NCBI RefSeq assembly: GCF_024741795.1 | Contig: NZ_CP102950.1 | Location: forward strand, 3,968,001-4,032,000 | Direction of reading: 5' to 3' | DNA from: Arthrobacter sp. CJ23 | GTDB taxonomy: Bacteria > Actinomycetota > Actinomycetes > Actinomycetales > Micrococcaceae | Length of the DNA stretch: 64,000 nucleotides | Part shown: piece by piece, positions 2,597-13,799 of the stretch | How positions within the stretch are numbered: the stretch's first letter is position 1 | Layout of the letters: each line of letters starts with the position of its first letter | The notes under the pieces: generated by a model | Seen by the model: only the letters and a program-made list of their open reading frames with translations | Database searches by the model: none | Told to the model about the DNA's origin: nothing | Position numbers and translations under genes: made by a program

Positions 2597-3475
2597 ATGA
2601 GCAACGTTGCAGTCATCGGTCTCGGAATCATGGGCCTCCCCATGGCCATCAACCTGGTCAAGGCCGGCCACACCGTCACCGGCTTCAACCGCAGCCAGGA
2701 CAAGATCGACAAGCTCGTCTCCGAGGGCGGCAAGGGTGCCACGAGCATCGCCGACGCCGTCAAGGACGCCGACGTGGTCATCACCATGGTGCCGGACTCC
2801 CCCGATGTTGAGGGCGTAGTCAGCGGCCCCGAGGGTGTCTTCGCCAACGCCAAGAAGGGCACCATCTGGATCGACGCATCCAGCATCCGCCCGGATGTTG
2901 CCAAGCGCCTCTCCGCAGAAGCAACCGCAGCCGGCATCCGCCCGCTGGACGCCCCGGTCTCCGGCGGCGAACAGGGCGCCATCGACGCCGTTCTCTCCAT
3001 CATGGTGGGCGGCGAGGCAGCCGACTTCGAGGCAGCACAGCCGGTCCTCACCGCCGTCGGCAAGACCATCGTCCACGTTGGCCCCGCCGGCTCCGGCCAG
3101 ACCGTCAAGGCAGCCAACCAGCTGATCGTGGCCGTCAACATCCAGGTCCTGGGCGAGGCCATCGCCTTCCTCGAGGCCTACGGCGTGGACACCGACGCAG
3201 CCCTCAAGGTCCTCGGCGGCGGCCTGGCCGGCTCCAAGGTCCTCGACCAGAAGGGCCAGAAGATGCTCGACCGCAACTTCGACCCCGGCTTCCGCCTGGC
3301 CCTCCACCACAAGGACCTCGGCATCGTCACCTCCGCAGCCCGCGAAGCCAACGTCGCCGTCCCGCTCGGCGCCGTCGTCGCACAGCTCGTCGCCGCAACC
3401 GTCAACCAGGGCGACGGCGGCCTCGACCACTCCGGCCTCTTCAAGCAGGTCCTGCAGCTCTCCGGCCGCAAGTAA
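2597..3475 (+). CDS. glxR: Tartronate semialdehyde reductase (2-hydroxy-3-oxopropionate reductase)
   Basis: The enzyme reduces tartronate semialdehyde to D-glycerate with NAD(P)H, after Gcl. The ATG at 2597 follows AAAGGAA and gives 292 residues, the family length. Features of the beta-hydroxyacid dehydrogenase family are present: the dinucleotide-binding GLGIMGLPMAINL at residues 7-19, the substrate-binding DAPVSGGEQGA near 120, and the catalytic lysine in GQTVKAANQ near 170. The last codons are duplicated just beyond the stop (3464-3477 and 3480-3493 share 14 bases), without effect on the protein. It lies between hyi and gcl. Confidence 0.93.
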   Translation: MSNVAVIGLGIMGLPMAINLVKAGHTVTGFNRSQDKIDKLVSEGGKGATSIADAVKDADVVITMVPDSPDVEGVVSGPEGVFANAKKGTIWIDASSIRPDVAKRLSAEATAAGIRPLDAPVSGGEQGAIDAVLSIMVGGEAADFEAAQPVLTAVGKTIVHVGPAGSGQTVKAANQLIVAVNIQVLGEAIAFLEAYGVDTDAALKVLGGGLAGSKVLDQKGQKMLDRNFDPGFRLALHHKDLGIVTSAAREANVAVPLGAVVAQLVAATVNQGDGGLDHSGLFKQVLQLSGRK

Positions 3476-9392: not shown

Positions 9393-10316
9393 TCAGAACG
9401 GCGAAAGCTGGCATCCCCACGAGAAGGAGGCGTTCCCGGCGACGTGGATGCCGACCACCATGCCGTCGGAGAGGGCCACATACGCCGAGCCCGAGTCACC
9501 TGGCTGGGTCACGTTGGCATCGAGGCGGATCATCGTATCGAACCAGGCCCAGCTGCCTGCGGCGGGCCACTCAACCTTCGTCGTGTAGGCCACGCTCGCG
9601 ATGCTCGCCTTCTGCACCGAGCCGGTTTGCTTGCCGACCAGCACGATCGACTCTCCCAGCACGGGGGCGCGGACGCCCCTGGGGACGCCGATCTGGGTGA
9701 TCTCCGGGGATCCCGTGGCCGGCGTGAGGTAGGTCCAGGCCAGGTCCTGGGTGTTGAAATGCGGGTGCGGCTGGGTGGCGCTGGGGTAGGTGACCACGGG
9801 GATGAATCCGTTGACCGTGCCAATCTTGTTGTTCACCCCGTTGCTGGGTTGGTACACATCAGCCCCGGCGTTGCCGTTGCAGGCAATGACGTGGTTGTTG
9901 GTCATCAGCCGGTACTTGGATGCCCACACAATGTTGACGCCAAGCGTGCCGGTCCCGGGCATGTTTTCGGCCCTGATCTGGTATCCGCCCTCGGCAGGCC
10001 GGATCCGTTCGTTGTTGATGTCGAGCCGGACGTCGCCGACTTCGACGACATCGGTGGGAACCGTAACCTCACGGACGGTGCCGTCCTCGCCCAGGGTATG
10101 GGCGGCGAATTGCTCCGGAATGGGGAAGTCCTCCGCACCAAGCTCGGCCACAGGCGTTTTCCTCACCACGTGCACCACGATCGAGCGCACGTCCGTCACT
10201 TGACCGTCCACGGCTTTGGGTCCCACGTCCAGGCCCACAATGTTGGGGCGCGACAACCAGGGCTTGACGGCCTCGATCAGCGCAGCATCGCTTGGGGAAT
10301 TTTCAGCAGAGTTCAC
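9393..10316 (-). CDS. Trypsin-like serine protease, apparently without a signal peptide
   Basis: The 307-residue protein keeps a chymotrypsin-fold triad: H142 in TNNHVIAC, D191 in NTQDLAWTYL and S275 in QPGDSGSAYV. The N-terminal 110 residues are a separate segment with KAVDGQVTDVRSIVVHV and no signal peptide or membrane helix; similar proteins are seen near repair or surface loci but the role is unknown. The start is GTG at 10316 after GGAGAGGG; an ATG just upstream is followed at once by a stop. It is a single-gene unit converging on bcp. Substrate and location cannot be read from the sequence. Confidence 0.75.
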   Translation of the reverse strand: MNSAENSPSDAALIEAVKPWLSRPNIVGLDVGPKAVDGQVTDVRSIVVHVVRKTPVAELGAEDFPIPEQFAAHTLGEDGTVREVTVPTDVVEVGDVRLDINNERIRPAEGGYQIRAENMPGTGTLGVNIVWASKYRLMTNNHVIACNGNAGADVYQPSNGVNNKIGTVNGFIPVVTYPSATQPHPHFNTQDLAWTYLTPATGSPEITQIGVPRGVRAPVLGESIVLVGKQTGSVQKASIASVAYTTKVEWPAAGSWAWFDTMIRLDANVTQPGDSGSAYVALSDGMVVGIHVAGNASFSWGCQLSPF

Positions 10317-10682
10317 GGCATTGCACCCTCTCCGAACAAGACAGTGAGCGGCTTCACGTGATCATTCAATTACGTTACGCCCTGTAACAGGATGGTAGGC
10401 TCGCCGGTTCTGAAAGACAACAGAAAAAGGGCCGCCTGCGCGGGCAAAGTTCCCTCCAAGCCCCTGGACAAGATCCTGGCAACCAGGGCGCAGGCCAACC
10501 GGCTGAACTGACGCACGTCAGCGTTGAGCCTTCTTGGGTCACCTCACAGCCGAGGCAGGGACTTCCTGTCGGCTCCGCCGCGTTGCCATGGGTTGTCCTC
10601 CCCATCGCGGGAAGCAGCTGAGCTGTGAAAGCATCGCATGATGGGCCGGTCATGCAGGGCCGGCATGGAATGGGGGCAAGAA
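10317..10682. other. Intergenic stretch between divergent protease and lipoprotein genes
   Basis: No credible gene is seen in these 366 bases. The part next to the protease start is AT-richer and should hold its promoter; TTACG and CTGTAAC elements are visible near 10370-10390 but no convincing -35/-10 pair stands out. The right part holds upstream ATGs of the lipoprotein frame (10638, 10668) that I consider less likely starts. Confidence 0.4.
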
Positions 10683-11246
10683 ATGGACTGCCGAATGGGC
10701 CGAAACGCGCTCCGGCAACGGCCAATTTTGATTGCAGCGCTGTTGGTGACAGGGGCACTCTTCCTGGCCGGCTGCGAGGCACGGCCGACTCCTGGCGCAC
10801 CCAGCAGCAGCCCGCCCCGCACCGCGGCCCCGGCGCCGGTGGCCGAGAGCTTCACGAAATACGATGCCGTGCGCGCTGAGTTCATCGCCGCATTGGAGGA
10901 AAAGATGCCCGACATCAGCTGGACTGTTGACGAGCCTGCCGGCATGGCCCTACTCAAGGATGGGAGATGCATGCTGTACCCGCAGACCATGAAGAGCAGC
11001 GCGGACATCGTGGAACCGTCGAAGCATTTTGCCGAAGTCTTCTCCGCCGGCGACCCCATCCTGGCGAAGCACGGCTTCCCCGCCTTCGACGGAACTGACC
11101 CTGTCCCCGGCGGCTGGGTGGTTGCGAGCAGCACGGACGCAGCCGGTGCCACAGTGACCGTCGAGTCCAAGAGCCCGGCCTACCTTCGCATCAGCGTCCC
11201 GGTTGATTCCAAAGCGTGCGATCCGAAAGAGATACCGGCCGGCTGA
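10683..11246 (+). CDS. Lipoprotein of unknown function
   Basis: The protein has a basic N-terminus (MDCRMGRNALRQRP), a hydrophobic stretch ILIAALLVTGALFLAGC ending in a lipobox, then a Pro/Ser/Ala-rich linker and a 130-residue globular domain with two cysteines (GRCMLYP and KACDPKE). It is therefore expected to be anchored to the outer face of the membrane. The start is uncertain: 10683 gives a typical lipoprotein signal, while 10638 and 10668 add 15 and 5 residues. The family is not recognised. It precedes the WXG100-calpain gene by 84 bases on the same strand and may belong with it. Confidence 0.75.
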   Translation: MDCRMGRNALRQRPILIAALLVTGALFLAGCEARPTPGAPSSSPPRTAAPAPVAESFTKYDAVRAEFIAALEEKMPDISWTVDEPAGMALLKDGRCMLYPQTMKSSADIVEPSKHFAEVFSAGDPILAKHGFPAFDGTDPVPGGWVVASSTDAAGATVTVESKSPAYLRISVPVDSKACDPKEIPAG

Positions 11247-11330: not shown

Positions 11331-12410
11331 ATGCCGGGATTCTACGGTGCTGACATCGAACAACTGCGGGCACTCGCCAGGACGATGTCCCGGCACTCCG
11401 AAAAGATGACTGCGCTTTCCATGGAGCTGGGTCAGATCATTTCAAACTCTTCATGGGACGGACGGGACGCCTCGATGTTCCGGGCCGCGTGGGATTCCGA
11501 ACATCGCCCAATGTTGAAGCGTGTCGCCCTGGATCTGCAGGACCAGGCAGGCAAGCTGAACCGCAATGCGGACGAGCAGGACAAGGCCAGCTCGGGAGCC
11601 TCCGATTCCGGCGCGCCGGGCAAGCCGGACTCCAATCCTCCCGGAGACCCTGGTCCCCTGAACCCGGATCTCCCTGATGTCGATGTCCGTGGTGACGTCC
11701 GCGACGACCCCGCCGCCGGCAATCCCAGAGATATCCAGCAAGGACAGATCGGCGACTGCTGGCTTTTGGCAGGACTGGGCTCGGTTGCCCAGACGCTGGA
11801 CAGGGAAGGCAAACTCGACGAATTCCTCGCCACGCATATGCGTCCCGTGGGCGATCCTCCGGCCCACTGGGTAGTAACCCTTTACGAAGATGGGAAACCG
11901 GTGGAAGTCACTGTTGAGGCTAAGTCAACACCGGGCGGCGTCCGGGGTGCCGACGGCCAGCCGAACTGGCTCTCCATCTACGAGCGCGCGGCCGCCGAGC
12001 ATCGCGGCGGCTCGTACAACGACATCAACGGCGGATTCAGCAACGATGCCATGGAGCTGATGACGGGGAAGTCCGCCGACAGAGACGGCGAGCTGAGCCT
12101 GGATGAGCTTGAGGACAAGCTCGCGAACGGTGAAGCCGTTTCTGTGGGCACGGAAGATGTCAAGGACGAGGACTTTGACTGGTTCTGGGAGTCCGACGAA
12201 GTCAACCGCACCGATGTCGTCCCCAACCACGCATACATCGTGGTAGACGTGAAAACCAACGACTCCGGGGAGAAGATCGTTGTCTTGGCCAACCCCTGGG
12301 GCCCGTCCGGCGGCGATCTTGACGGCGAGCACAAGTCCGGCACTCTGGAACTGACCGAGGAGGAGTACAAGGAAAACTTTGACTCCGTGTACTCCATGGA
12401 TGTGAAGTAA
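11331..12410 (+). CDS. WXG100 domain fused to a calpain-type cysteine protease
   Basis: Residues 1-85 form a WXG100/ESX-like helical hairpin with the turn motif WDG at 42-44. A Pro/Gly/Asp-rich linker (about 87-133) leads to a papain-fold calpain catalytic domain with C143 in QGQIGDCWLLAGLGSVA, H300 in VPNHAYIVVDV and N321 in LANPWGPSG. The ATG at 11331 follows AAAAGGGG by eight bases; an upstream in-frame ATG (11268) would add 21 unrelated residues. WXG100 domains usually direct proteins to type VII secretion, so an exported protease effector is inferred. No type VII machinery genes are in the window. The small gene four bases downstream may encode its partner. Confidence 0.85.
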   Translation: MPGFYGADIEQLRALARTMSRHSEKMTALSMELGQIISNSSWDGRDASMFRAAWDSEHRPMLKRVALDLQDQAGKLNRNADEQDKASSGASDSGAPGKPDSNPPGDPGPLNPDLPDVDVRGDVRDDPAAGNPRDIQQGQIGDCWLLAGLGSVAQTLDREGKLDEFLATHMRPVGDPPAHWVVTLYEDGKPVEVTVEAKSTPGGVRGADGQPNWLSIYERAAAEHRGGSYNDINGGFSNDAMELMTGKSADRDGELSLDELEDKLANGEAVSVGTEDVKDEDFDWFWESDEVNRTDVVPNHAYIVVDVKTNDSGEKIVVLANPWGPSGGDLDGEHKSGTLELTEEEYKENFDSVYSMDVK

Positions 12411-12412
12411 GG

Positions 12413-12730
12413 ATGGCCGTGGAGCAGCTCGTAACAGTCAAACAAGGCATGCAGCCCAGCTTCGGCGGTGTCCTCGTCGGAATCGTGAAGATCGGCGTCG
12501 CGGACGCCGCCCCCGCAATCCAGGTCTGGATCCGGTCCTCCGGACAAGAGCGCAAGCAGGCCTTCCGTGAAGGCCAGTCCGTTCTGTTGCCCGGAGCTGG
12601 CACCTTGCGGGTTGAGTCAATCCGACCCGCTGACGGGGACGCCGCAGCGTTCGCGGTCCTGGCCTACGACTCCGAGGACACCAGCGAGAGCGCGTCAGCT
12701 CCGCTCAGGCCTTGGCGAGGGCTTCCTTGA
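12413..12730 (+). CDS. Small protein paired with the WXG100-calpain gene
   Basis: The 105-residue product is soluble and predicted beta-rich (alternating hydrophobic strands such as FGGVLVGIVKIGV and QSVLLPGAGTLRVESI), with no signal peptide or membrane helix. It starts two bases after the protease stop codon, so the two are surely co-expressed. It may be an inhibitor, immunity protein or chaperone for the protease; this is inference from position alone. Its last 26 bases overlap the convergent aminotransferase gene. Confidence 0.7.
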   Translation: MAVEQLVTVKQGMQPSFGGVLVGIVKIGVADAAPAIQVWIRSSGQERKQAFREGQSVLLPGAGTLRVESIRPADGDAAAFAVLAYDSEDTSESASAPLRPWRGLP

Positions 12731-13799
12731 GCGCACCGAGCACCAGTGTCACCGAGGCCGGGGTGGCGTTCGGGCCCATCATGCCGATCCGCCACACGGT
12801 GTCCGTGAACTCGCGCACGCCGCTGCCGATCTCCATGCTGAAGGTCCGCAGAAGGTAGCCGCGTACGGCAGCCGAGTCGACGCCGTCGGGCACTTTCACA
12901 GTGGTGAGGCTGGGCAGGCGGGCGCCTTCGGCGGCAAACAGTTCCAGGCCCATGTCCTGGAGGCCCGCCTGCAGCGCCGCCCCGGCGGCGCGGTGCCGGG
13001 CCTGCACGGCATCCAGGCCCTCGGCAAGGATGCGGTCAAGGGCCGCTTCGAGGCCGGCGATCATGGTGACGGGCGCGGTGTGGTGATAGGTGCGGGTCCC
13101 GCTGGCAGCGCCCACGTAGCCGCCGAGCAGCCCGATGTCGAGGTACCAGGAGCGCGGATCCTTGATGCGGCGCTCGAACGAGCGCTCGGACACGGTGAAC
13201 GGGGACAGCCCCGGCGGCACGCCCAGGCATTTCTGCGTGCCGGCGTAGCCGACGTCGATCCCCCAGTCGTCAGCGAGCAGCTCCAGCCCGCCGATGGAGG
13301 TCACGGCGTCGGTGATCAGCAGGGCATCGCCCTTGCCGGCACCGAGCGTGGCGATGTCCGAGAGCACGCCCACCGAGGTTTCGGCGTGGACGGCGGCGAT
13401 GACCTTGGGGTGGGGGTGCGCGGCCAGGACCTTTTCGGCGTCAACGGGCTGGCCCCATTCGTGGTCCACACGCACCACGGTGGCGCCGCAGCGCCTGGCG
13501 ACCTCGCACATCCGCTCCCCGAAGAGGCCGTTGACGGCGATGACGGCCACGTCGCCTTCGGACACCGTGTTCACGAAGGCGGCTTCCATGCCGCCGGAAC
13601 CGGTGGCACTCAACGGGAGGGTCCGCGCATTGGAGGTCCCCCAGACCGTCCGGAGCCCGGCGCACGTCCTGTCCAGGCGCTCGATGAAGACGGGGTCCAG
13701 GTGCCCGATCACCGGGTAGGCCAGGGCGGCCGTGGCCTCGGGGTAGCAATTGCTGGGGCCGGGACCGAACAGGAACCGGGAGGTCAGGATGGCTGGCAT
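12705..13799 (-). CDS. Class V aminotransferase of the alanine-glyoxylate / PucG group
   Basis: This 364-residue PLP enzyme has the family signature around the Schiff-base lysine (AGTQKCLGVPPG), the TDAVTSIGG cofactor aspartate segment, and the N-terminal FGPGPSNCYPEA. The group includes serine/alanine-glyoxylate aminotransferases and (S)-ureidoglycine-glyoxylate aminotransferase (PucG). Given the allantoin and urate genes on both sides, a glyoxylate-linked ureide function is plausible but not proven. The ATG follows GAAGGGG. It reads toward the small gene at 12413 and overlaps it by 26 bases. Confidence 0.85.
   Translation of the reverse strand: MPAILTSRFLFGPGPSNCYPEATAALAYPVIGHLDPVFIERLDRTCAGLRTVWGTSNARTLPLSATGSGGMEAAFVNTVSEGDVAVIAVNGLFGERMCEVARRCGATVVRVDHEWGQPVDAEKVLAAHPHPKVIAAVHAETSVGVLSDIATLGAGKGDALLITDAVTSIGGLELLADDWGIDVGYAGTQKCLGVPPGLSPFTVSERSFERRIKDPRSWYLDIGLLGGYVGAASGTRTYHHTAPVTMIAGLEAALDRILAEGLDAVQARHRAAGAALQAGLQDMGLELFAAEGARLPSLTTVKVPDGVDSAAVRGYLLRTFSMEIGSGVREFTDTVWRIGMMGPNATPASVTLVLGALKEALAKA

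Follow-up and report, generated by a model that had tools for sequence, protein, structure and literature searches.

Proteins that join a WXG100 domain to a calpain domain have been in print since 2015, when they were reported from Herpetosiphon and Segniliparus (Rawlings 2015, PMC4631099). A role as exported toxins was suggested there, a reviewer called the fusions likely type VII secretion system (T7SS) toxins, and the same paper doubted that any bacterial calpain had received a sound biochemical characterisation. Neither "operon" nor "Arthrobacter" appears in the available text of that paper, whose passages on the fusions name no partner genes. Zhang (2012, PMC3482391) described polymorphic toxins of the T7SS that carry papain-like domains, among them Tox-PL1. 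A third group of described systems consists of the staphopain-staphostatin pairs of staphylococci, the SpeB-Spi pairs of streptococci and the Bacteroides C10 protease-Bti pairs, in which a secreted papain-like protease is encoded alongside its inhibitor, the latter being cytoplasmic or, for some Bti, a predicted lipoprotein (PMC3462683).

The locus analyzed here lies in a 64,000-nucleotide stretch of the Arthrobacter sp. CJ23 chromosome (hereafter the window) and encodes a lipoprotein, a calpain fusion and a small all-beta partner. Its fusion protein has the same two domains as those described from Herpetosiphon and Segniliparus (PMC4631099), a type that the original prediction had taken as news. 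Like the toxins of Zhang (2012), it combines a WXG carrier with a papain-like peptidase in actinobacteria; the Tox-PL1 entry of that paper names no immunity protein, whereas the present system has two conserved candidates, and the word "calpain" was not found in the available text (PMC3482391). With the staphostatin, Spi and Bti pairs the trio shares a small gene beside the protease gene (here in all 41 loci L021-L061). It differs from them in protease family (C2, against C47 and C10), in its predicted T7SS-like export route and in having two unlike putative guards per cassette, and no sequence link to their inhibitors was found. No description of a bacterial calpain immunity protein or of a calpain-type T7SS effector was found in the open-licence PMC literature, a search scope that does not establish absence from print. 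The fusion type is thus known, while the two linked companions, the protease specificity of the partner, the compartment switch and the link to an EccC locus are new.

The three genes probably form an accessory effector cassette (probability about 0.6), comprising a T7SS-exported protease, a cytoplasmic inhibitor and a lipoprotein conferring immunity outside the cell. The WXG100-like hairpin would deliver the protease, a cysteine enzyme of the calpain type, to a type VII-like machine, whose ATPase would most likely be the EccC encoded at 1448 kb of the same genome. The cytoplasmic beta protein may bind the protease domain and hold the protease inactive until export, much as staphostatin does for staphopain and Spi for SpeB, while the lipoprotein, on the outer side of the membrane, would shield producer and kin cells against the protease once it is exported. 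If so, papain-like T7SS effectors would gain a two-compartment immunity logic, and the calpain fold a natural class of protein inhibitors.

The calpain fusion and its two neighbours

The fusion protein scored 65.4 bits against the Pfam Peptidase C2 model (curated cut-off 23.8), and its Cys-His-Asn triad, in the expected order, was invariant over 29 aligned rows. The fold obtained for its L054 orthologue was that of a calpain protease core, and the N-terminus displayed a helical hairpin with a W-x-G turn. Pfam search and alignment therefore confirmed the predicted union of a hairpin bearing a WDG motif with a calpain domain whose triad is intact, and the domain make-up is established (Table 1). 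As the hairpin remained under the curated cut-offs of the WXG100 superfamily (16.4 bits against 27.3, and 22.9 against 44.85), it is named WXG100-like. YxxxD/E is the type VII export motif that follows such hairpins; it was not found here, Y5 being the sole tyrosine within residues 1-130, and Q83 and S87 were conserved in the hairpin region in its place (29-row alignment).

Table 1. Coordinates of the trio in the window
Feature	Position	Strand	Basis or detail
WXG100-like/calpain (Peptidase C2) fusion, 359 aa	11331..12410 (TAA stop included)	+	Pfam search and alignment; fold from orthologue L054
Helical hairpin, WXG100-like, residues 1-90	11331..11600	+	
WDG motif, residues 42-44	11454..11462	+	W42 and G44 invariant in 29 aligned rows
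Calpain catalytic domain, residues 131-325	11721..12305	+	Extent per Pfam match
Catalytic Cys143 codon	11757..11759	+	Sequence and alignment
Catalytic His300 codon	12228..12230	+	Sequence and alignment
Catalytic Asn321 codon	12291..12293	+	Sequence and alignment
Lipoprotein gene, 202-aa ORF	10638..11246	+	Probable start Met16 at 10683; lipobox LAGC, Cys46
All-beta partner protein of 105 aa, putative cognate inhibitor	12413..12730	+	Profile comparison, loci

The upstream lipoprotein displayed a lipobox and extracytoplasmic features, and in its family the lipobox cysteine C46, C111, C194 and L142 were invariant over 25 aligned rows. A trypsin-like protease gene (9393-10316 on the minus strand of the window; PF13365, E 1.5e-7) adjoined the trio.

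The partner gene started 2 bases downstream of the protease gene, and no signal peptide was visible by eye in its product. Residues from about 90 onwards formed a tail absent from close relatives, and the ORF overlapped the convergent gene at 12705-13799 (minus strand) by 26 bp (12705-12730). That convergent gene is aminotransferase-like, and the ORFs of close relatives are shorter. In a fused model of protease and partner (pLDDT 83.6, pTM 0.61) the partner fold was confident. A search of PDB sequences with partner profile A5 (E up to 10) matched six chains, none of them an inhibitor; the Foldseek search gave no clear match (best E 0.14), and staphostatin, chagasin and cystatin were absent among the fold matches listed. 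With neither a sequence link nor a clear fold match to known inhibitors, the partner can be likened to them in function at most and is not classed as one of them. Of 21 partner-family members, 5 weakly matched Pfam DUF6406 (PF19944), a family itself without assigned function, at E values of 1 or less, the best (0.012) falling short of significance; the L078 lipoprotein reached 14.7 bits of the 26.9 needed and the window partner did not match at all, so that the similarity is sub-threshold and the relation unproven. Resemblance of the partner to a 155-aa neighbour of the WXG carrier at 4157 kb (E 0.03) was not accepted as homology.

Linkage of the three genes in related loci and genomes

The contig scan retrieved 71 distinct loci, among which the 41 loci L021-L061, spread over several actinobacterial families, carried the partner family directly adjoining the calpain and the lipoprotein family nearby without exception in profile searches. 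These same loci supplied the seeds of the partner profile, which therefore depends on them; the adjacency does not. The lipoprotein gene lay upstream on the same strand in L021-L039, upstream and divergent in L040-L051, L053-L055 and L057-L059, downstream on the opposite strand in L052 and L056, and downstream on the same strand in L060 and L061, with a second copy in L031 and L045. The conserved linkage of the three genes is thus established and a chance neighbourhood is ruled out; since it outlives rearrangement, it suggests a functional tie rather than the shared descent of a block. The lipoprotein, mentioned only in passing in the original prediction as the gene preceding the protease, was as strictly linked as the partner.

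Searched with partner profile A2 (E up to 0.01), the 6688 ORFs of at least 50 aa from the 71 loci yielded only six further matches outside the 41, each directly 3' of a calpain (L065, L070, L074, L078, L079 and L089). The Brachybacterium loci L063, L064, L070 and L072 retained the lipoprotein; the profile recognised the partner in L070 alone and missed the small downstream ORF in the other three as well as in L062, where neither partner nor lipoprotein was recognised by profile.

Among 149 Micrococcaceae genomes, full-length WXG-calpains were encoded by eight genes in seven genomes, and the eight partner genes occurred in the same seven, every one adjacent to a calpain; absences in this census are provisional, as a limited number of candidates was scored per genome. 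The co-occurrence in relatives on which the inhibitor prediction leaned was therefore borne out, both at the 41 loci and in the restriction of the partner to exactly the seven calpain genomes. Gene order was swapped in G054:C14, with the partner ORF 5' of the calpain. A lipobox-bearing ORF (by eye; L099:4013-4801) adjoined the second calpain of G054 and was not among the lipoprotein-profile matches. Partial calpain matches in G129 and G001 were accompanied by no A2 match; the G129 calpain (L098:4156-6827) had a different, longer N-terminus, and a membrane-anchored protein (by eye), not the partner, was encoded beside it.

The lipoprotein profile matched 52 genomes, eight of which (E below 1e-18) were counted as real, as was an additional G113 copy (1.7e-11); most of the remaining listed matches covered the signal-peptide end. 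The strong matches were confined to the seven calpain genomes and a truncated relic in G128, an orphan lipoprotein (L101:6308-6700) in a genome without calpain match. This relic sat between relatives of the genes flanking the L045 trio, a methyltransferase-like gene and a short regulator-like ORF (by eye).

Prepilin-type calpains and the compartment of the partner

Twelve distant calpains (L065-L069, L073, L074, L076-L079 and L089) displayed a prepilin-like N-terminus, as called by a simple motif-plus-hydrophobic rule that fitted 11 of the 12 (L077 being similar by eye) and none in a set of 118 proteins. DUF4244 was matched weakly by L065 (E 0.034) and L067 (E 0.0025); DUF4244, or prepilin-like segments of this kind, are features of Flp pilins. 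A Tad-like system may display the prepilin-type calpains.

In all 12 cases the next gene encoded a lipoprotein with a signal segment, its lipobox found by pattern in 11 and by eye in L068. Aligned as a group (alignment A3, 11 of the 12, L076 omitted), these lipoproteins matched the partner family in profile comparison (probability 95.8, P 6.9e-9), while A2 alone recovered five of the 12 (L065, L074, L078, L079 and L089; E 3e-6 to 3e-3). The lipoprotein family of the trio was found near none of the 12 within the flanking DNA covered, which is short at L065, L079 and L089. In a protease tree built from 49 of the 71 loci, T7SS-type rows shared one branch (86/92), and the 12 prepilin-type rows shared another (93/87) with three ungrouped long-branch rows. 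The compartment switch corresponds to one event in this tree and is counted once.

Judged from these sequences, the beta protein seems to go with the protease and with the compartment that the protease occupies. Where the protease bears a prepilin-like N-terminus, the beta domain would itself be made as a lipoprotein, in loci whose flanking DNA gave no match to the other lipoprotein family. We tentatively propose, at somewhat less than even odds, an undescribed family of bacterial-calpain inhibitors whose compartment depends on the export route, that is, cytoplasmic and complemented by a separate lipoprotein guard beside T7SS-type proteases, and itself a lipoprotein with no second guard beside prepilin-type ones.

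Carrier domains, alternative roles and the candidate exporter

Of the 149 genomes, 31 contained the hairpin carrier domain, many copies being joined to other C-termini; an initial 33 had included two doubtful genomes that were dropped, G001 (match confined to 79-250) and G103 (E 3.4e-4, position unlisted). In the genome of the window (G000), further carriers lay near 3430, 4157, 4195 and 4326 kb and the domain stood alone at 4520 kb; the C-terminal matches of its carriers included DUF6973 (2.5e-30) and DUF2515 (6.5e-6). Three of its carriers (L094:3649-5885, L095:4446-6043 and L015:3072-5759), with DUF2515, DUF6973 and unassigned C-termini, resemble a polymorphic effector set.

The protease could alternatively process surface or secreted proteins of the producer itself, with partner and lipoprotein regulating it in their respective compartments. 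The prepilin-type relatives do suggest roles at the cell surface, and a releasing function has been proposed for some of the papain-like peptidases found in polymorphic toxins (PMC3482391). The patchy distribution of the family (7 of 149 genomes), the presence in the same genome of several other carriers whose C-termini differ from that of the protease, and the truncated orphan lipoprotein of G128, a genome without calpain match, which immunity would predict, argue against a processing enzyme and make this role unlikely.

EspG and the LXG-linked Lap proteins act as export chaperones or targeting factors. The small beta protein could be another such factor rather than an inhibitor, leaving immunity to the lipoprotein only, and its small size, its apparent lack of a signal peptide and the tight linkage of its gene to a T7SS-type substrate would fit. 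The window partner was the single A2 match in its genome, and beside other carriers of the same hairpin A2 matched nothing in the 149 genomes; the partner is therefore tied to the protease and not to the carrier, its specificity for calpain-bearing carriers is established, and a general carrier chaperone is disfavoured. The partner was also kept in L060 and L061, where the calpain N-terminus differs and has no Pfam name, and the family occurs as a lipoprotein with prepilin-type calpains, which renders a role in export, without inhibition, slightly less probable still than the processing one.

The least probable alternative makes the lipoprotein an anchor, or a receptor, that retains the protease on the producer surface or aids its secretion. 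The lipoprotein genes seen by eye beside carriers L094, L095 and L015 might point to such a general role (none was seen near the 3430-kb carrier, L097). Against it, the carrier-side lipoprotein compared with that of the window, one of the three (at 4157 kb), showed no similarity in BLAST and was rejected as a homologue, as expected of toxin-specific immunity, and strong matches to the calpain-lipoprotein profile were confined to the seven calpain genomes and one relic.

For the export step of the effector cassette, the candidate machine is marked by an EccC-like ATPase gene at 1448378-1452820 of the genome (L019:8378-12823). Its orthologues (at least 62% identity) were found in 30 of the 149 genomes, nearly full-length in 29 and in two pieces in G091. 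Carriers and this EccC co-occurred, both being present in 30 genomes, a carrier alone in one (G144), EccC alone in none and neither in 118; Fisher p-values for this association overstate it, related genomes not being independent. Five genomes with relatives at 39-49% identity (G142, G074, G141, G075 and G112), for which no carrier was listed, were not counted as EccC-positive. The two traits also varied together within genus g7, where G037 and G104 lacked both and G006, G084, G121 and G135 had both. A copy of the hairpin domain followed the EccC match at 119-234 bases in 11 of the 30 genomes, as a stand-alone 89-aa protein in G053; unlike these 11 relatives, the genome of the window showed no stand-alone WXG100 ORF beside its EccC.

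FHA, kinase and RDD/FHA genes lay upstream of the 1448-kb EccC (1425-1448 kb, L092), and transglutaminase-like, DUF58-like and MoxR-like genes and two very large repeat proteins were recognised there by eye. YukD was not found in the genome (best 13.4 bits against a cut-off of 27, with controls matching), and the EccB model matched nothing there and was likewise silent in controls, which makes it uninformative. The type VII system expected in this genome is thus partly borne out, by an EccC locus co-occurring with carriers, and the prediction of an exported effector with its inhibitor is supported in part. The phylogenetic profile indicates that the 1448-kb EccC is likely the exporter of the carriers. 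The conserved trio hence names a protease, a candidate inhibitor and a candidate immunity protein, and the candidate exporter is narrowed to a single EccC locus.

Another EccC-like protein, encoded at 3096 kb, was rejected as the exporter; it was enriched with carriers (E below 1e-200 in 15 of 31 carrier genomes against 10 of 118 others, p 2e-6), yet tracked them much less well than the 1448-kb EccC. At E up to 1e-60 its matches extended to 105 of the 149 genomes, cross-matches to other EccC-like proteins included. A third EccC-like protein of G000 corresponded to a 1511-codon frame that begins some 2.2 kb past the WXG100 gene located at 2781 kb. The region holding both (2766-2798 kb; L017, L018) has low GC3 and may be a mobile island.
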